From Bacteroidales bacterium (lineage in GTDB: Bacteria; Bacteroidota; Bacteroidia; Bacteroidales; UBA7960): a stretch of 36,401 nt of DNA. The stretch is from NCBI GenBank assembly GCA_003560165.1, contig PWJC01000057.1, positions 1 to 36,401 of the forward strand, given 5' to 3'. The first letter of the stretch is position 1. The number at the start of each line of letters is the position of its first letter. Made by a program: the position numbers and the translations under genes. The notes below the pieces were generated by a model. The model did not search any database. It was given only the letters and a program-made list of their open reading frames with translations, and had not been told where the DNA came from. This document shows positions 2,383-10,523 of this stretch, one piece after another.

Positions 2383-3243
2383 TTGAAAACAGTCAGCGGC
2401 AAATACCTGAAAAAGCCCCCCTGGCTCCGGATCAAACTTACCGGGGCACAGTATTACCGGCAAATGAAGGGAGTTCTCGAAGCCGGAAAACTAAATACCA
2501 TCTGCGAAAGCGGGGCCTGCCCGAATAAGGGAGAATGCTGGGGCGCCGGAACCGCTACCTTTATGATACTGGGCAATGTGTGCACCCGCAGCTGCCGTTT
2601 TTGCAATGTACCCACCGGAAAACCCGCTACGCCCGATCCCTTCGAACCCGAACAGGTGGCAGCGGCAGTTGCATCGATGGGGGTCAGGCACTGCGTCATT
2701 ACCAGTGTCGACCGCGACGACCTGGCCGATGGGGGTGCCTCGGTATGGGCAGCCACCATTGCGGCCATCAGGGAAAGATCGCCCCGGACCACCATAGAGG
2801 CCCTGATCCCCGATTTCAGGGGACAGGAAAAAGACATTCGCAGGGTGATGGAAACCAGGCCGGATGTGCTCAGCCACAACCTCGAAACCGTAAGGAGGCT
2901 GACCCGCGAGGTGAGGGTGTTTGCCGATTACGATACCAGCCTGGGTGTGATACGCTATATTTCGACCACTTCGGATATCAGGACCAAATCGGGCATCATG
3001 CTTGGTCTGGGCGAAACCGAGGAAGAGATCATTCAGACCATGGACGAGCTGTTGCTGGCCGGATGCCAGGTACTTACGCTGGGGCAATACCTTCAGCCGA
3101 CCCGAAAACACCTGCCGGTTCAACATTACGTTCATCCCCACGATTTTGAACGTTACGGTACCCTGGCCCGCGATAAAGGCTTCCGTTTTGTTGAGAGTGC
3201 CCCTTTGGTCAGGTCGTCCTATCATGCCGAAAAACATGTGTAA
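2383..3243 (+). CDS. lipA: Lipoyl synthase
   Basis: Radical-SAM enzyme that inserts two sulfur atoms into the protein-bound octanoyl group to make lipoyl cofactor for the 2-oxoacid dehydrogenases and glycine cleavage. The auxiliary cluster cysteines (C-E-S-G-A-C-P-N-K-G-E-C), the radical-SAM motif C-T-R-S-C-R-F-C, the conserved Q-Y-L-Q-P-T and the C-terminal R-S-S-Y are all present. At 286 residues it is full length. The start used is TTG at 2383; no ATG is available between the upstream in-frame stop at 2368 and the conserved N-terminal region. The end is near the NamZ-type gene, whose alternative upstream ATG (3236) would overlap the lipA stop. Confidence 0.95.
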   Translation: MKTVSGKYLKKPPWLRIKLTGAQYYRQMKGVLEAGKLNTICESGACPNKGECWGAGTATFMILGNVCTRSCRFCNVPTGKPATPDPFEPEQVAAAVASMGVRHCVITSVDRDDLADGGASVWAATIAAIRERSPRTTIEALIPDFRGQEKDIRRVMETRPDVLSHNLETVRRLTREVRVFADYDTSLGVIRYISTTSDIRTKSGIMLGLGETEEEIIQTMDELLLAGCQVLTLGQYLQPTRKHLPVQHYVHPHDFERYGTLARDKGFRFVESAPLVRSSYHAEKHV

Positions 3244-3274: not shown

Positions 3275-4501
3275 ATGTCCCGATTGTTCACCCCCCTGGC
3301 CGTGGCCTTTCTGCTGCTTATGGTAAGCGCGGGCTTCCCGGCTCCTGCCGAACCGCTTAACAGCTATGGAATCAGCTCTGACAGGATAATCCCGGGAGCC
3401 TGGCAAACAGAAAAATACCTTCCCCTGCTCGAGGGAAAACGGGTGGCTGTTGCAGTGAACCATACTTCGATGGTGGGCAACCGCCACCTGGCAGACACCT
3501 TGTTGCTTTCGGGGGTCAACGTGGTAAAGGCATTCAGCCCCGAGCACGGCTTCAGGGGAGAGGCCGCCGACGGTGAACTGGTGGACGACGAATACGACGA
3601 AACCACCCGGCTGCCGGTGATCAGCCTTTACGGGACGGGGCAGAGAAGGCCTTCGGCCACCCACCTGTCAGATATCGACATCATTGTTTTTGACATCCAG
3701 GATGTCGGGGCCAGGTTCTATACCTATGTTTCGACCATGACCTATATCATGCAGGAAGCCGCCAGCCAGGGCATTCCGGTGATGATACTGGACAGGCCCA
3801 ACCCCAACGGACATTATATTGACGGACCGGTCCTCGAGCTGGAATATGCTTCCTTTATCGGTTTGCATCCGGTACCGGTAGTACATGGGATGACCATGGC
3901 CGAATATGCACAAATGGTCAATGGCGAAGGCTGGCTGGGTTTGGGAAGGGTCTGCGAACTCGTCATCATCAAGGTGGAAAACTATACCCGCCAAACCCCC
4001 TATTGCCTGCCCTTACCCCCTTCGCCCAACCTGCCCAATATGCATTCGGTGTATCTTTATCCTTCGCTTTGCCTGTTCGAAGGGACGCAAATCAGCGTGG
4101 GCAGGGGTACCCCAAAGCCATTTCAGGTATTCGGCCATCCGGAGTTTCCCCCGGAGCTGTTCACCTTCACCTTTATGCCCGAAAGCCAACCCGCTTCCAA
4201 ATACCCCCCCCTCGAAGGGCAGACTTGCTACGGCAAAGACCTGAGCATCCATTCACTCGACTCGCTGAGGGCCGGAAACCGCATCAACCTGGCCTACCTG
4301 CTGGAAGCTTACCGGCATTTCCCGGACAAAGCGGCGTTTTTCAGCGACAGGGCATTCGATCTGAGGGCAGGCAATTCGCTGCTGCGAAACCAGATCAGGG
4401 CCGGATTGTCGGAAGAACACATCAGGATGAGTTGGCAGGAAGGCCTGGATGCATTCCGTAAATTCAGAGAGCCATACCTGCTGTATCCCGACCTGGATTG
4501 A
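3275..4501 (+). CDS. namZ: Exo-beta-N-acetylmuramidase NamZ-type (DUF1343)
   Basis: DUF1343 proteins include NamZ of Bacillus subtilis (YbbC) and Tannerella forsythia, exo-acting enzymes that release terminal N-acetylmuramic acid from peptidoglycan fragments. This 408-residue protein has a signal peptide (MSRLFTPLAVAF to A-P-A-E), then the Rossmann-like domain with V-N-H-T-S, the family signature F-S-P-E-H-G-F-R-G, D-I-Q-D-V-G-A-R-F-Y-T-Y and L-D-R-P-N-P-N-G, and the C-terminal domain with F-E-G-T and S-V-G-R-G-T. It should act in the periplasm. ATG 3275 puts the signal peptide at the front; ATG 3236, overlapping the lipA stop, would add 13 residues. Its stop overlaps a possible TTG start of prmC. 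Substrate is inferred from the family, not tested. Confidence 0.9.
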   Translation: MSRLFTPLAVAFLLLMVSAGFPAPAEPLNSYGISSDRIIPGAWQTEKYLPLLEGKRVAVAVNHTSMVGNRHLADTLLLSGVNVVKAFSPEHGFRGEAADGELVDDEYDETTRLPVISLYGTGQRRPSATHLSDIDIIVFDIQDVGARFYTYVSTMTYIMQEAASQGIPVMILDRPNPNGHYIDGPVLELEYASFIGLHPVPVVHGMTMAEYAQMVNGEGWLGLGRVCELVIIKVENYTRQTPYCLPLPPSPNLPNMHSVYLYPSLCLFEGTQISVGRGTPKPFQVFGHPEFPPELFTFTFMPESQPASKYPPLEGQTCYGKDLSIHSLDSLRAGNRINLAYLLEAYRHFPDKAAFFSDRAFDLRAGNSLLRNQIRAGLSEEHIRMSWQEGLDAFRKFREPYLLYPDLD

Positions 4502-4524
4502 CCCCAACTGAAACTTACTTATAT

Positions 4525-5430
4525 ATGCTTGGACTTAAGGACAATACACTGGGTGAAGTTTATCGTTGGTTTAAGAAACAGATTGCCGCTGTCTACCGGC
4601 CTGACGAACAAACCACACTGGCCAATGAGGTGTTCCGCCGTTTTCTGGACGTTGCTCCCGATCAGCGGGTACTCTCTCCCCGCCAACGCTTATCCGAATC
4701 CGATATCGTCAGGCTTTACAAGGCAGCCAAACGCCTCAGCAGGGGAGAGCCTCTCGAATACGTTACCGGCGTCACCGATTTTCTGGGGCATCCCATCCGC
4801 GTGAGTCCCCGGGTATTGATCCCCCGGCCGGAAACCGAAGAATTTGTTCAGTGGGCCGGTGCGCATATCAGGGAAAGGGGGCATCCGAAACATCAGGCCC
4901 ACCGCCTGCTGGACATTGGCACCGGCAGTGGTTGCATTGCCATTGCCATGGCGCATGGGTTTCCCGGCATGGAGGTATGGGCTTGCGACGAGGACGTGGA
5001 TGCACTTGAAATAGCCAAACATAATGCATTGATAAACAAGGTATCAGTAGGTTTTTTTCGCTGCAATGTATTGGCCCGGCGGGACCATCCTTTCCCCCCC
5101 GCTTCTCTCGATACCATTGTCAGCAACCCCCCCTATGTCCGCGAATCGGAAAAAGCCCGGATGAAACCCAATGTACTCGATCACGAACCGGCAAAGGCCT
5201 TGTTTGTGCGTGATAAAGACCCCCTGATATTTTACAGGGCCATCGGCATTCTGGCCATGGAGTGGCTGAGGCCGGAAGCTTGGCTGTATGTGGAAGTCAA
5301 TGAGTCCATGGCGCCCGAAACCAGCATGCTGCTGTTCGAACTGGGCTTGCGCGAAAACATGCACACTGCCGACTTTCGCGGCAAACCCCGTTTTGTGCGG
5401 GCACAGAGACCAGGCCAGGGGTTTCATTAG
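4525..5430 (+). CDS. prmC: Peptide chain release factor N5-glutamine methyltransferase
   Basis: SAM-dependent enzyme that methylates the glutamine of the GGQ motif in release factors RF1 and RF2, improving translation termination. The N-terminal helical domain is followed by the fold's SAM motif (L-D-I-G-T-G-S-G-C-I-A-I-A), the acidic adenosine-binding motif and the catalytic N-P-P-Y that binds the glutamine amide; R-P-E-T-E is also present. The start was set at ATG 4525 (301 aa). A TTG at 4498 overlapping the NamZ stop would add nine residues and is possible. The gene ends only 6 bp from the stop of the convergent threonine aldolase gene, with no evident terminator between them. Confidence 0.93.
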   Translation: MLGLKDNTLGEVYRWFKKQIAAVYRPDEQTTLANEVFRRFLDVAPDQRVLSPRQRLSESDIVRLYKAAKRLSRGEPLEYVTGVTDFLGHPIRVSPRVLIPRPETEEFVQWAGAHIRERGHPKHQAHRLLDIGTGSGCIAIAMAHGFPGMEVWACDEDVDALEIAKHNALINKVSVGFFRCNVLARRDHPFPPASLDTIVSNPPYVRESEKARMKPNVLDHEPAKALFVRDKDPLIFYRAIGILAMEWLRPEAWLYVEVNESMAPETSMLLFELGLRENMHTADFRGKPRFVRAQRPGQGFH

Positions 5431-5436
5431 GCGGCA

Positions 5437-6471
5437 CTAATCTGCCATGGCTTCTTTGACTGCTCCGGCAAACTGTTCAATGTCGTTCTCTGTGGTGTGG
5501 TAGGCCGTCATCCACCTGACCTCGTTCTGCGGGGCATCCCATACATAAAAGAAATATTTTCGCTTCAATTTCTCGATGGCCCTGGCCGGAATCCTGGCGA
5601 ATACCGCATTGGTTTCCACCGGTTGGGTGATCTGTATGCCGGGGATGGTGTTCAGTATCCCTGCCAGCTTCCCGGCCATGGCATTGGCCCTGACAGCGTT
5701 TTCCAGCCACAGCCCGCCCGAGAGCAAGGCGTTGAACTGAGCGCTGATGTAGCGCATCTTGGAAGCCAGCTGCATGGATTGCTTCCTTGTGTACTCAAAG
5801 GCTTCTCCCAGGGCAGGATCAAAAAAGACCACGGCTTCTGCTGCCATCAACCCATTCTTGGTGCCTCCGAAAGACAATACATCCACCCCCGCATCCACGG
5901 TCAGTCCGGCCAGGCTGGTCCTGAGGCTGGCCGCCGCATTCGCCAGCCTTGCGCCATCCATGTGCAGGTACATCCCATGTTCGTGCGCAAAGTCTGCAAT
6001 TTCCCTGATCTCCTCAATGCGGTAAACGGTGCCCAACTCGGTAGCCTGGGTAATGGAGATCACCCTTGGTTGCGCGTGATGCTGGAAACCCAGGGAACCC
6101 AGCAGCGGAAGGATCTGGTCGACCCGTATCTTCCCGTCGGCAGAAGGCAGCTTCAATAGTTTGCAGCCAGAAAACCGCTCCGGGGCACCACACTCATCGT
6201 TTTCCAGGTGGGCTTTGTCCGAACAGACAACAGCCTGGAAAGGTCTGGTGATATGGGCCAGGCAAGCCACATTGGCTGCCGTGCCGGTAAACATAAAAAA
6301 CACCCCGATGCCGTCACCGAAATGCTCCCTGAACATTTTTTCGGCCGCCAGGGTATGCCTGTCGTCTCCGTAGCCGATGGCATCGCCCCGGTTGGCCTCC
6401 ATCATGGCGTGAAACACTGTTTCGTGCACCGGGGCGTTGTTGTCGCTGGCAAAACTCTTGAGTGATTCCAT
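5437..6471 (-). CDS. ltaE: Threonine aldolase, low-specificity type
   Basis: PLP enzyme of fold type I that cleaves L-threonine or L-allo-threonine (and other beta-hydroxy amino acids) to glycine and an aldehyde. The 344-residue protein starts M-E-S-L-K-S-F-A-S-D-N-N at ATG 6471, the family's typical N-terminus. It contains Y-G-D-D, the G-T-A-A-N phosphate-binding turn, H-M-D-G-A-R-L-A-N-A and the PLP lysine in S-F-G-G-T-K-N-G. It is last in the minus-strand run M55-M20-alr-ltaE, 25 bp after the racemase stop. The context suggests amino-acid salvage; whether it prefers L-Thr, L-allo-Thr or a product of the neighbours cannot be read from sequence. Confidence 0.92.
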   Translation of the reverse strand: MESLKSFASDNNAPVHETVFHAMMEANRGDAIGYGDDRHTLAAEKMFREHFGDGIGVFFMFTGTAANVACLAHITRPFQAVVCSDKAHLENDECGAPERFSGCKLLKLPSADGKIRVDQILPLLGSLGFQHHAQPRVISITQATELGTVYRIEEIREIADFAHEHGMYLHMDGARLANAAASLRTSLAGLTVDAGVDVLSFGGTKNGLMAAEAVVFFDPALGEAFEYTRKQSMQLASKMRYISAQFNALLSGGLWLENAVRANAMAGKLAGILNTIPGIQITQPVETNAVFARIPARAIEKLKRKYFFYVWDAPQNEVRWMTAYHTTENDIEQFAGAVKEAMAD

Positions 6472-6496
6472 CGTGTGTATGCAATTGAAGTGAATG

Positions 6497-7645
6497 TCAG
6501 GGAACAATAAGGCGGGGAATGTCGGCCGGCAAACGGGTGAGCAGCTGGTAATTGAGCTGCTCACTGAGTTCGCAGAACGAAGATATGCTGATGTTCATCC
6601 GTTTTTGCCTGCCTATCATGACCACCTCGTCTCCCCTTTCCACTCCGGGCAGGCCGGTAACATCCACCGTCATGGTATTCATGGTAACGGTACCGATGAC
6701 CGGCACCCTGCGCCCACGTATCAGCACCCTGCCCGTGTTGCTCAGCGCGCGGCTGAATCCATTGGCATAGCCCACAGGTATAATGGCCACCTTCATTTTC
6801 CGGTTGGCCAGGTAGGAGCTGCCATACCCGATGAAGTTCCCCGCCTCCACCTGTTTTACCACCATAACCTTCGACTTCCACGAAAGCATGCGGTTTAGGG
6901 GAGATTTTTCGGCTGTTCCCTTACGGAAACGGAACATCTTGGTTTCAGGGCTGGGCCAGAACCCGTATTGGGCAATGCCAAAGCGCACCATGTCCATAAT
7001 GGTGTTGGGATAGGTGAGGGCTGCAGCCGAACAGGCCGTGTGCCGAAGCTCCGGCAAAAGGTCGTGGCGAACGAAATAGCGGTTGAATTTCCGAAACTGC
7101 GATAGCTGGTTTTTGATCCTGAGGTAATTGGCCAGGCTCTCGGCCCCGGCATAATGCGTGCACAATCCGCGAAATTCAAAGTGTGCACGGTGTTGCTTCA
7201 GGTAGGCCATCAGGGCCCCGATGTCAGGATATTCGAATCCTGTCCTGTTAAAACCGGTTTCCACTTCGATATGCAGCCTGGCCCTGAGGTTCATCTTCCG
7301 GGCCGTTTCGATGGCCTTCTGAAGACGCCCGTGATCAAAAACAAAGAATTCGATCCCGTTCTCTATGGCCCATTCAATCTCGGGATCGTCGAGAAGGCCC
7401 ATGATCATGATCTTGCTCTTCTCCGACAAGACCTCCAGCATCTCGCTGGCCTCCTTTGCCGAAAACACAGAAAAATGAAAGATGCCAGCCTCCTCGGCCA
7501 GGGGCACAATGTTGTGCACCCCGTGCCCATAGGCATTTCCCTTTACCACTGATGAAAAAGCGGCTTTTCCGATGATCTTTTTCAGATAACGGATATTGCT
7601 TCGATAGGCTTTCCTGCTGATCTCAATGTACGAGGTGTTAAACAT
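6497..7645 (-). CDS. Alanine racemase-like PLP enzyme, stand-alone
   Basis: Fold type III racemase, normally interconverting L- and D-alanine. The PLP lysine is Lys35 in V-V-K-G-N-A-Y-G-H-G, and the catalytic tyrosine region is I-G-Y-G-S-S-Y. The later motif that is usually C-M-D in alanine racemases reads T-M-N here (G-T-V-T-M-N-T-M). The length is 382 residues. ATG 7645 overlaps the upstream M20 gene by 9 bp, so translation is probably coupled. In many Bacteroidota the housekeeping racemase is fused to MurF; this copy is free and lies in a catabolic-looking operon. It may therefore be an accessory racemase with different or broader specificity. Racemase activity is likely; that the substrate is alanine is less certain. 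Confidence 0.85.
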   Translation of the reverse strand: MFNTSYIEISRKAYRSNIRYLKKIIGKAAFSSVVKGNAYGHGVHNIVPLAEEAGIFHFSVFSAKEASEMLEVLSEKSKIMIMGLLDDPEIEWAIENGIEFFVFDHGRLQKAIETARKMNLRARLHIEVETGFNRTGFEYPDIGALMAYLKQHRAHFEFRGLCTHYAGAESLANYLRIKNQLSQFRKFNRYFVRHDLLPELRHTACSAAALTYPNTIMDMVRFGIAQYGFWPSPETKMFRFRKGTAEKSPLNRMLSWKSKVMVVKQVEAGNFIGYGSSYLANRKMKVAIIPVGYANGFSRALSNTGRVLIRGRRVPVIGTVTMNTMTVDVTGLPGVERGDEVVMIGRQKRMNISISSFCELSEQLNYQLLTRLPADIPRLIVP

Positions 7646-8807
7646 CCTGCCCAATAGTTAGTAGTTGATCTGCAATATGGTAGAACAACATGATCCCTGC
7701 CGGGATGATGTGGTCGGGGAAATCGTAATCGTGGTTGTGGAGGCTGGGGTGTTTTTCGCCCGAACCCAGGCCAAAAAGTGCCCCCCGGTATTTCCCGGTA
7801 AAATGACCGAAATCTTCCGACCACCTGAATGCTTCACCGACCCGCATGGGAGTGACCCCGCTGCGCCTGACAGCCTCTTCCACCAGGCGGTTGGCCTCTG
7901 CGTCATTGTGCGTGGCCGGGAATTCCTCTGTATGGTTGATCTGTGCCTTTATGCCGTGTTTCTGGGCAAGTTTGTTGACGATCTCCATGGCCCTGTTGCT
8001 CAGCAATTCCATATCGCTGTTCAGAAAGGTGCGCAGGGTGGCCATGACCACCGCCTTTCCGGGGGTGGTGCCGAAGGCCACTTCGCCCAGCTTTGCATGA
8101 ATAATGGTAAGCAGCGCAAAATCGGACAACCCGGAAGCATCACCGGGCAGTTCTGTCAACTCCTTCATCAGTTCCACCATCATATGCACCGGACTGTTCC
8201 CCTGTTCCGGATGGGCGGCATGAGCCGATCTTCCCTGCAGTTGAACGATCATCCCTTTGGAGGCAGAGGCAAAAACCCCCTCCCTCAACACCGCCGACTT
8301 TGCCGGGTATCCCGGGAGGTTGTGCAAGGCAAAAACCCAGTCGGGTTCGATTTCCCTGAAGGCCTTGTCGGCAATGACACTGGCAGCTCCCTGCCCGGTT
8401 TCCTCTTCGGGCTGGAAAAGCAGCACAAGCCGCCCCTTCTGAGGCCTGCGAGTGCGGACAATGGTGGCCAGCCCGGACAGAATGGCCATATGGCCGTCGT
8501 GACCGCATGTGTGGGCCACACCGGGGTGACGGCTGCGGTGGGCAAAGCGGTTCACCTCTTCAACGGGCAGGGCGTCCAGATCGGCACGCAACATCAGGGT
8601 AGGGCCGGATTTCCCTGAATTGTATACCGCAGCAAGCCCATGACCTCCAATACCTTTAATGATACTGTCGGGCTTCTGCTTACTCAGGAAAGCCTCCAGC
8701 CTGTCAGCCGTTTGACTCTCGTGTCCGGAGAGTTCGGGATAACGGTGCAGGTTTTTGCGCAGCCTGACCACCCTGTCCAGACAATTTTTGGAAATGATCT
8801 CTCCCAT
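7638..8807 (-). CDS. M20D family metal-dependent amidohydrolase
   Basis: Zinc-type peptidase/amidohydrolase of the hippurate hydrolase, IAA-amino-acid hydrolase and N-acetyl-diaminopimelate deacetylase group. Metal and catalytic residues are visible: H-T-C-G-H-D-G-H, Q-P-E-E-E (general base and ligand), A-L-H-N and the C-terminal S-L-H-N-H-D-Y-D-F-P-D. The dimerisation lid (G-R-S-A-H-A-A-H-P) is intact. It has 389 residues from ATG 8807, no signal peptide, and is probably cytoplasmic. It is 53 bp downstream of the M55 peptidase and overlaps the racemase. Removal of an acyl group from an amino acid or short peptide fits the setting, but the substrate cannot be named. Confidence 0.9.
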   Translation of the reverse strand: MGEIISKNCLDRVVRLRKNLHRYPELSGHESQTADRLEAFLSKQKPDSIIKGIGGHGLAAVYNSGKSGPTLMLRADLDALPVEEVNRFAHRSRHPGVAHTCGHDGHMAILSGLATIVRTRRPQKGRLVLLFQPEEETGQGAASVIADKAFREIEPDWVFALHNLPGYPAKSAVLREGVFASASKGMIVQLQGRSAHAAHPEQGNSPVHMMVELMKELTELPGDASGLSDFALLTIIHAKLGEVAFGTTPGKAVVMATLRTFLNSDMELLSNRAMEIVNKLAQKHGIKAQINHTEEFPATHNDAEANRLVEEAVRRSGVTPMRVGEAFRWSEDFGHFTGKYRGALFGLGSGEKHPSLHNHDYDFPDHIIPAGIMLFYHIADQLLTIGQDV

Positions 8808-8860
8808 TGGTATCGTCAACTTTCTGCAGGTAAAATGAAACAGGCATACGGAATGCCCGG

Positions 8861-9763
8861 TTAGTCCCTGGCTATCAGAAGCACCGCCCTGAGCAACTGA
8901 AAGACCTCAATAAAGTCTTCCCTGGCAAATGCCACACTGCGCGGCCCCGTCCTGTCGACACCGGGGATAAGGGTGGCCGATTGTGCCTGTGAACTGAACA
9001 AGAAAGATACCTCCAGGGAAGTTTCCGGGCCGGGACGAAAGGGAGTGGCCCGCCCGCGTCCGTTGAGGGCAAGGGCGGTGTTTTCCCTGATAAGTTCGGC
9101 AGCCCTGGAAGGCACCAGGGTATTGGCTGCGGTACGACCGATCCCCTGCTTTACGGGGGTGGTCACCAGGTGTTCTCCCAGCAGCGACCTGGCCTGCTCA
9201 CAAAAGACCTCGTCGCCCGAAACCATCACCACCGCCACACCGTAATACCCGGCGATCAGGGCATTGATCCCGGCTTCGCCCATTTCCTGCCCGTTCACTT
9301 TGATTGAATAGACCGATGCACTGGAATACGTATGATCGAGTACCCCGTCGAAAGAACCGGCCCGGGCGTGATATCCGATAAACACCACGGCGTCGAAGTT
9401 TTCGCCGATGCCCTCCATCATGGAAAGGGGCTTGGGGCTGCCGGTAATCAGCCGGGCCGCCGGATTGATCTCGGAGGCGATCAGGTTGCGCATACCGCCG
9501 TGAGAGTCATTAACAACAATATAAGTGGCCCCGGCATCCAGCGCTCCCTGGATGGCCGCATTGGCCTCGAGAGTGGCCCATTGCCTGGCCAGGGAATAGT
9601 CGTGGCCCCCGGCACGTACCTGGTCGCTGGCCACCACGCCGGCAACCCCTTCCATGTCGACTGAAATATAGACCCTCAGGCCTTCATCTCCATGCACCCG
9701 CACAGGGTAAAAACTCAGAGAAAGAATGGCAATGGCTGCCACAAAAATTGCAATCCGGTTCAT
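8861..9763 (-). CDS. M55 family D-aminopeptidase (DppA-like), exported
   Basis: M55 enzymes such as DppA of Bacillus subtilis are zinc aminopeptidases that release N-terminal D-amino acids, notably D-alanine. The residues known from DppA are all present: D36-x-E38 (S-V-D-M-E-G), D-S-H-G, G-Y-H-A, the nucleophile histidine in V-L-D-H-T and the glutamate in G-E-A-G-I-N. Unlike cytoplasmic DppA, this 300-residue protein carries a clear signal peptide (residues 1 to about 25), so it should act outside the inner membrane. ATG 9763 was chosen; ATG 9781 would add six residues. The open frame continues upstream into a decayed receptor gene, which is not part of this protein. It is the first gene of the M55-M20-alr-ltaE run. 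Confidence 0.9.
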   Translation of the reverse strand: MNRIAIFVAAIAILSLSFYPVRVHGDEGLRVYISVDMEGVAGVVASDQVRAGGHDYSLARQWATLEANAAIQGALDAGATYIVVNDSHGGMRNLIASEINPAARLITGSPKPLSMMEGIGENFDAVVFIGYHARAGSFDGVLDHTYSSASVYSIKVNGQEMGEAGINALIAGYYGVAVVMVSGDEVFCEQARSLLGEHLVTTPVKQGIGRTAANTLVPSRAAELIRENTALALNGRGRATPFRPGPETSLEVSFLFSSQAQSATLIPGVDRTGPRSVAFAREDFIEVFQLLRAVLLIARD

Positions 9764-9937
9764 CGTTACAAATGAATTCATGAATAATTCGTTCTGATCG
9801 GGTCTGCAAAATACAAAAAAAAACACCCGGAATAATCCCGGATTGGAATTCCATGAAAGCTCCGGAAGCTGTTTCAGCGATCCTGCCCGGGTATGCGCAG
9901 CAAAATGCGTCCGGTTATATTGTACGCGATGATCACT

Positions 9938-10493
9938 GAATTCGCTCCTGACGTATGTATAGGAAAGGATCAGATTCCAGCCCCGGAGATCCTGTTCCCT
10001 GAAAAACAGTTCGGCTCCGTAAGCCCTTCCCCAGCCCACAGATAACACGACCTCGTCGCCCACAGCCAGCCTCTCCCATGCCCAGCATTAGGCGGTACTT
10101 TCCCAGATTCAACAGCCGTTCAAAGAGGAGCTTGTTCTCTGCTTCATCCGAAGTATAGTCAAAGATCCGGGAAAGCGAGCTGATAACCCATGTTTGCGTA
10201 CCATTGCCCATGAAACGGCGAAAAACCGCCCCCAGAGAATAGTTCCACTGCTCGTTCACCGGCAAAAAATCAAGAATGTACCGCTGTTGTTCTGTTTCAT
10301 TGGCCTCGAGGTTCAAACGCAAGCGGTCGATGGCTCTGATGCCCACTATGCTCAGGGTCGAACTGGGGCCTGTGCGCGTTTGGCTTTTAAACTGAAAGCC
10401 ATTGTAGGTGGGCAGAAAAGGCAGGCCTACCACCCCAAAGAGAAACTGGAGATAGGAACGTCTGGCGGAGGCAATGAAGGTGGTATTGGGGCC
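9938..10493 (-). pseudogene. TonB-dependent receptor remnant
   Basis: Two blocks of typical Bacteroidota TonB-dependent receptor barrel sequence survive. Block 1 (about 10493-10074) contains F-I-A-S-A-R-R-S-Y-L-Q-F-L-F, G-L-P-F-L-P-T-Y, Y-I-L-D-F-L-P-V-N-E-Q-W and S-D-E-A-E-N-K-L. Block 2 (about 10063-9938), in another frame, contains G-R-A-Y-G-A-E-L-F-F and L-S-Y-T-Y-V-R-S-E-F, which normally lie far downstream near the C-terminal barrel. The join near 10064-10076 therefore removes a large internal segment. Block 1 also looks shortened between T-W-V-I-S and D-Y-T-S-D. Signal peptide, plug domain and C-terminus are absent. Only about 185 codons remain of a receptor that is usually over 700 residues. 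It lies on the same strand as, and directly upstream of, the M55 operon. Confidence 0.85.
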
Positions 10494-10523
10494 AAGGGGG
10501 CTGGCCGGAATGCAAAAAAATAG

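Follow-up and report, generated by a model that had tools for sequence, protein, structure and literature searches.

In alanine racemases, active-site residues form an Asp-Arg-Asp salt-bridge network that has been called fully conserved, and the same source describes an Asn in place of Asp313 as occurring naturally in broad-spectrum racemases (PMC10288493). Tyr at the Geobacillus Tyr354 gate restricts larger substrates and favors small ones such as alanine (PMC4517790), and the broad-spectrum racemase of P. putida prefers Lys and Arg (PMC6034422). The nearest precedent found for the gene pair studied here is a lysine cluster of Staphylococcaceae in which a hydrolase is paired with Alr2 (PMC4685198). 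Here we describe a locus in a 36,401-nucleotide contig (PWJC01000057.1, "the window" below) from a soda-lake-type Bacteroidales bacterium, in which the gene for an M20D amidohydrolase overlaps the gene for an alanine-racemase-like enzyme dependent on pyridoxal 5′-phosphate (PLP). We see about an even chance that the functional core of the locus is this translationally coupled pair, working as a cytosolic salvage module that hydrolyzes and then inverts its substrate, and that the genes around it are exchangeable accessories.

The pair belongs to a row of four minus-strand genes with operon-like spacing:

8861..9763, minus strand: M55 D-aminopeptidase, 300 aa (PF04951, 326.1 bits against a cut-off of 25; DppA structure 1hi9, 188.8 bits)
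7638..8807, minus strand: M20D amidohydrolase, 389 aa (PF01546, 115 bits, cut-off 24.6; TIGR01891, 220.7 bits, cut-off 153.75)
6497..7645, minus strand: alanine-racemase-like PLP enzyme, 382 aa (TIGR00492, 265.7 bits, cut-off 168)
5437..6471, minus strand: low-specificity L-threonine-aldolase homolog, 344 aa (PF01212, 181 bits; structure 5vye, 280 bits)

The M20D and racemase genes share 8 bp (7638–7645), the M20D ATG lies 53 bp past the M55 stop codon, and the aldolase ATG lies 25 bp past that of the racemase. A first-pass annotation, made from the sequence alone, had grouped these four genes with a plus-strand NamZ-type exo-muramidase as a cluster for scavenging cell-wall material and D-amino acids, and had pointed to the M20D-racemase overlap, to intact catalytic motifs and to signal peptides on NamZ and M55. 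These descriptive points stand: all five genes are present and intact at the positions first given, their Pfam families are matched far above cut-off in searches that also covered NCBIfam, the active-site residues of the four minus-strand enzymes align with those of solved relatives, and NamZ and M55 begin with signal-like stretches when read by eye. All of these proteins belong to known families. The TIGR01891 score of M20D is joined by a CGHD metal-site motif that aligns with B. subtilis YxeP (1ysj), and in the racemase the PLP Lys and the catalytic Tyr likewise align with solved relatives. M55 has DMEG, SH, GYH and E at positions aligned with B. subtilis DppA, among which the metal ligands presumably lie, and scores below the DppA equivalog NF058634 (233.2 bits, cut-off 430). 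The aldolase is close to solved L-threonine aldolases, 5vye among them, and stays below the NCBIfam equivalog cut-offs (54.2 of 312 for NF007825; 92.3 of 230 for the GntG family). We place M20D and the racemase in the cytosol because neither has a signal peptide: none was seen at the M20D N-terminus, and the racemase, read by eye, starts straight in its fold (MFNTSYIEIS).

Conservation of the pair was followed first within the family, using one locus from each of 36 other family genomes; the family comprises 47 genomes, 21 of them from the genus of the window. Orthologs of the window racemase (at least 65% identity) occur in 38/47, including one 241-aa fragment (G019) that was not among the loci fetched. 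In 33 of the 36 loci the gene immediately upstream of the racemase, on the same strand, is M20D; in the remaining three the contig ends 6–131 bp upstream of the racemase. For a wider view, named genomes were scanned and yielded 80 loci, which are the best 80 by racemase similarity and not a random sample; 26 of them, 65–80% identical, repeat the family set, and the other 54 (L102–L156 without L121), at 51–63% racemase identity, form a wider set delimited by identity, not taxonomy. In 45 of these 54, M20D is encoded on the racemase strand no more than 700 bp upstream. Among carriers of the racemase clade in an even draw of genomes from the phylum, the window's own genome aside, M20D is directly upstream in 10/16. 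Because the adjacency is kept in other genera while the flanks change, it goes beyond chance. The first-pass annotation had singled out the order M55-M20D-racemase-aldolase for comparison with relatives, and would have taken its complete absence from them as a refutation, which is not what we see. Where genus loci extend to the position, five of 12 show that order; it appears at none of the 54 wider loci, in whose flanks M55, NamZ and aldolase all gave no match at E≤1e-15. The deeply conserved element is thus the M20D-racemase pair; the four-gene order is genuine but has only local reach.

The racemase exceeds the cut-off of the alanine racemase equivalog and is one of three Alr-type proteins among six PF01168 matches in its own genome. 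The other two are an 834-aa MurF-Alr fusion (contig C117) and a paralog with 48% identity (C13:9546-10682, locus L076) that has counterparts in 6 other family genomes. Because of the MurF-Alr fusion, the window racemase is not the housekeeping copy; together with the third paralog, the fusion disposes of the possibility, raised in the first-pass annotation as an argument against its own proposal, that this racemase is the only housekeeping enzyme. A further candidate role for the racemase is the replacement of diaminopimelate epimerase, as has been proposed for the staphylococcal hydrolase-alr2 pair, where an M20-type hydrolase and an Alr homolog are joined in the same way (PMC4685198). DapF scores over its cut-off in 46/47 family genomes, the window's own included, which rules this candidate out as a working explanation and leaves it highly improbable.

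Residues of the racemase clade were mapped on Geobacillus Alr (1sft/1bd0), with the reference sequence checked against the PDB, and counted in 36 family sequences (window included), 53 wider sequences and 4 of the paralog type. One family racemase cut by a contig end (L072) and one wider locus in which the racemase open reading frame was not called (L122) were excluded. Catalytic Lys39 and Tyr265 are kept in every family (36/36) and wider (53/53) sequence, and the clade also retains Arg136, His166, Arg219 and Tyr354. The salt-bridge network has been replaced. The Asp313 site is Asn in 36/36 family, 52/53 wider and 4/4 paralog-type sequences; the Asp of the GYADG motif is Asn throughout the family and His, Asn, Gln or Met in the 53 wider sequences, Asp occurring in none; the Arg363 site is Asp or Asn in 33/36 family sequences and Asp, Asn, Thr, Ala or Glu in 50/53 of the wider set. 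The Lys129 site is Glu in 36/36 and 52/53, respectively. In the window racemase the residues at these four sites are Asn323 (Asp313), Asn295 (GYADG Asp), Asp375 (Arg363) and Glu127 (Lys129). Five PDB relatives retain the three-residue network, and the MurF-Alr domain of the same genome retains the network and the Lys. What these changes say about the substrate is divided, since Asn at the Asp313 site suggests a broad range and the kept Tyr gate suggests small substrates. For a non-alanine racemase, basic or hydroxy amino acids would be the first substrate candidates.

If the pair forms the core as we propose, M20D would act in the cytosol on an N-acyl amino acid or a dipeptide and release the free amino acid, which the racemase would then invert for ordinary L-amino-acid metabolism; both the order of these reactions and the salvage direction are inferred. 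Different lineages would add different genes to this core: a TonB-dependent receptor and a DUF2271-like protein, Na+ symporters, GNAT proteins, an Orr-like racemase or lysine-degradation enzymes. In the genus of the window, the additions would be the exported M55 in front, which could supply D-amino-acid dipeptides or free D-amino acids, and the L-threonine-aldolase homolog behind, which could handle β-hydroxy amino acids.

The aldolase follows the racemase directly in 24 of the 32 family loci that reach the next gene, across six genera, and in 17/18 such loci of the window's own genus. In three loci of another genus (g5), a Na+-neurotransmitter-type symporter stands between the racemase and the aldolase. 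In the data examined, the link of aldolase to racemase was seen only in family loci. M55 is scarcer. It occurs in 9/47 family genomes and 5/21 genus genomes, leaving 38/47 and 16/21 without it; in the five genus genomes it is always directly upstream of M20D, and in the four further family genomes it is not at the fetched racemase locus. The position before M20D is reached in 12 genus loci, counting the window, and is held by M55 in 5 and by another exported protein in 7. In a midpoint-rooted tree of joined racemase, M20D and aldolase proteins, the five carriers form a basal grade of the genus, a pattern that would fit one early gain of M55 and one later loss.

Upstream of M55, the window holds pieces of a gene that is intact in relatives:

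10074-10499 and 9917-10066, minus strand: TonB-dependent receptor remnants in two frames (found by tblastn with receptors of relatives)

The remnant is 65% identical to residues 269–426 of the 807-aa receptor of locus L038, with a C-terminal piece in addition; the two pieces are in different frames and most of the gene is missing. A TonB-dependent receptor, supported by Pfam in an intact relative, lies upstream of the row in 15/36 family loci, and an exported DUF2271-like protein, encoded after the receptor gene, is likewise present upstream of the row in 15/36. The DUF2271 match is sub-threshold in 13 of the 15 exported-protein sequences (best E 0.0067), and a weak structure model of the protein (mean predicted local distance difference test score, pLDDT, 65.7) gave no PDB match at E≤0.001. 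The gene was not found in the window's own genome in a search that had no positive control.

The neighbors that recur in the 54 wider loci are a PutP-like SSS symporter (16), an Orr-like second racemase (15), a GNAT protein (14) and an M23-like protein (13). Seven loci, from Flavobacteriales and others, have the operon-like order SSS symporter-GNAT-M20D-racemase-Orr-like (L124, L134, L137, L141, L143, L149 and L152), and thus place two different PLP racemases, Alr-like and Orr-like, side by side. The M23-like protein, which has no obvious signal and resembles the middle part of the PRK06148 family, stands directly before M20D in Cyclobacteriaceae and relatives (L109, L111, L126, L129, L133, L138–L140 and L147). 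Taken with the lysine-degradation genes described next, the recurrent symporters, GNAT and Orr-like proteins point to general amino-acid salvage, not to D-Ala from peptidoglycan, as the probable setting of the pair.

A more specific possibility is that the racemase acts on Lys- or Orn-like amino acids, whose N-acyl forms would be the substrates of M20D. In 3/4 loci of genus g2 (L066, L068 and L069), genes for homologs of lysine-ketoglutarate reductase and saccharopine dehydrogenase lie directly before M20D, and in many Flavobacteriales loci a protein of the ornithine racemase (Orr) family directly follows the racemase. The Asn at the Asp313 site, the preference of the P. putida enzyme for Lys and Arg, and the staphylococcal lysine cluster, each cited above, lean the same way. 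However, the Orr-like protein scores 326 bits, under its cut-off of 480, the lysine-related neighbors are confined to one small genus, the Tyr gate is retained, and lysine or broad-spectrum racemases did not come first in the racemase profile search. A restriction of the module to basic amino acids is unlikely on this evidence.

On the opposite strand from the M55, M20D, racemase and aldolase genes runs a second row, lipA-namZ-prmC:

2383..3243, plus strand: lipA, housekeeping neighbor (TIGR00510, 360.3 bits, cut-off 310.25)
3275..4501, plus strand: NamZ-type exo-muramidase, 408 aa (PF07075, 246 bits; PF20732, 111.5 bits)
4498..5430, plus strand: prmC, housekeeping neighbor (TIGR03534, 207.2 bits, cut-off 199.1)

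The prmC gene overlaps namZ by 4 bp and converges with the aldolase gene, whose 3′ end at 5437 is 7 bp from the prmC end at 5430. Both NamZ domains are found in the NamZ protein, and a second NamZ-type gene lies elsewhere in the genome (C111:49696-50313). In the family, NamZ is present in 14 of the 18 loci that reach prmC; two genomes of the genus (L046 and L072) have no namZ between prmC and lipA, so the gene is dispensable at this place.

The pathway drawn in the first-pass annotation began with NamZ and M55 cutting peptidoglycan outside the cell, after which D-amino acids would be imported, deacylated by M20D, converted to L-forms by the racemase and passed to the aldolase and catabolism. 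The signal-like N-termini of NamZ and M55, the four-gene order in five genus genomes and the frequent company of NamZ and prmC favor it. Against this, NamZ sits among housekeeping genes and has a second copy on C111, none of M55, NamZ or aldolase was detected at the 54 wider loci, and M55 is absent from most family genomes. Alanine is not known to be a substrate of threonine aldolase, a matter of established enzymology that also counts against the pathway. Membership of NamZ in the minus-strand transcription unit is ruled out by its opposite strand. As a theme common to all five genes, wall degradation is not supported, given that NamZ lies in a separate, opposite row and that M55 is missing from most genus and family genomes while M20D and the racemase stay; the pathway as drawn is distinctly unlikely. 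Wall scavenging is one possible use of the M20D-racemase module, with NamZ at most a neighbor.

Several observations weigh against the proposal that M20D and the racemase form a salvage core with accessories. The racemase clade lacks an adjacent M20D in 9 of the 54 wider loci and in 6 of the 16 carriers from the even draw, where the clade is found in 17 of 148 phylum genomes at E≤1e-70, the window's own included. The C13 paralog has the same Asn at the Asp313 site and no M20D neighbor; to judge from it and from these carriers, the racemase can function on its own. Among solved structures, alanine racemases are the nearest, and the Tyr gate is that of an enzyme for small substrates. Finally, the stretch between the receptor remnant and M55 contains a terminator-like hairpin with nine T (9843-9825), and a weaker hairpin separates M55 from M20D. 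They weakly call co-transcription of M55 and M20D into question; the hairpins are weak evidence because the scan found 11 such sites where 6.6 (standard deviation 2.8) were expected.

These hairpins would also suit a reading in which only M20D and the racemase are functionally linked, and M55 and the aldolase are neighbors by descent with no shared pathway. Within the genus, gene order is shared as far as sucC, lipA, prmC and housekeeping genes on the recN side, and for that reason neighborhood alone says little. The aldolase, however, accompanies the racemase in most informative family loci over six genera, and follows the symporter in the three loci of genus g5, which counts against that reading; we regard it as unlikely. 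Our preferred reading, an M20D-racemase core with exchangeable accessories, can be carried a step further. We tentatively suggest, at well under even confidence, that the pair is an undescribed, Bacteroidota-wide module for salvage by stereo-inversion, that its racemase forms a subfamily of its own, with a rewired site and a non-alanine substrate, and that it is fed by M55 in the genus. Our search of an open-access library returned no description of an M20D-alanine racemase pair with an altered active site in Bacteroidota. If the suggestion is right, the label alanine racemase is wrong for an enzyme of many Bacteroidota genomes, and these organisms have an unrecognized route for using amino acids in N-acyl, dipeptide or D-form, of which sediments and soda lakes hold plenty. 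The replaced residues would also offer a direct test of what determines substrate choice in the alanine racemase family.

Compared with known systems, the window racemase shares its fold family with alanine racemases (Geobacillus Alr, 1sft; C. tengcongensis Alr, 4y2w; B. subtilis Alr2, 5irp) and has their PLP Lys, catalytic Tyr, Arg136, Arg219 and Tyr354 gate, but differs in its replaced Asp-Arg-Asp network and Lys129, its linkage to M20D and the presence of MurF-Alr in the same genome. M55 shares family and aligned catalytic residues with B. subtilis DppA, but has a signal-like N-terminus indicating export and no dpp transporter beside it. The S. aureus pepV-dat genes also set an M20 hydrolase beside a PLP enzyme for D-amino acids. 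Unlike the proteins of the window pair, Dat is an aminotransferase and PepV belongs to a different M20 group. The staphylococcal hydrolase-alr2 pair has the same arrangement of an M20-type hydrolase beside an Alr homolog and lies inside a lysine biosynthetic cluster (PMC4685198), whereas here DapF is present and no lysine biosynthesis genes were seen alongside. With broad-spectrum racemases (Bsr; P. putida Alr) the window enzyme has in common Asn at the Asp313 site (PMC10288493); it differs in having no visible signal peptide, the mark of the periplasmic export of Bsr, in keeping the Tyr gate and in not matching Bsr best in profile searches. The catabolic role of the P. putida enzyme (PMC6034422) is the analogy that we propose for the window racemase.

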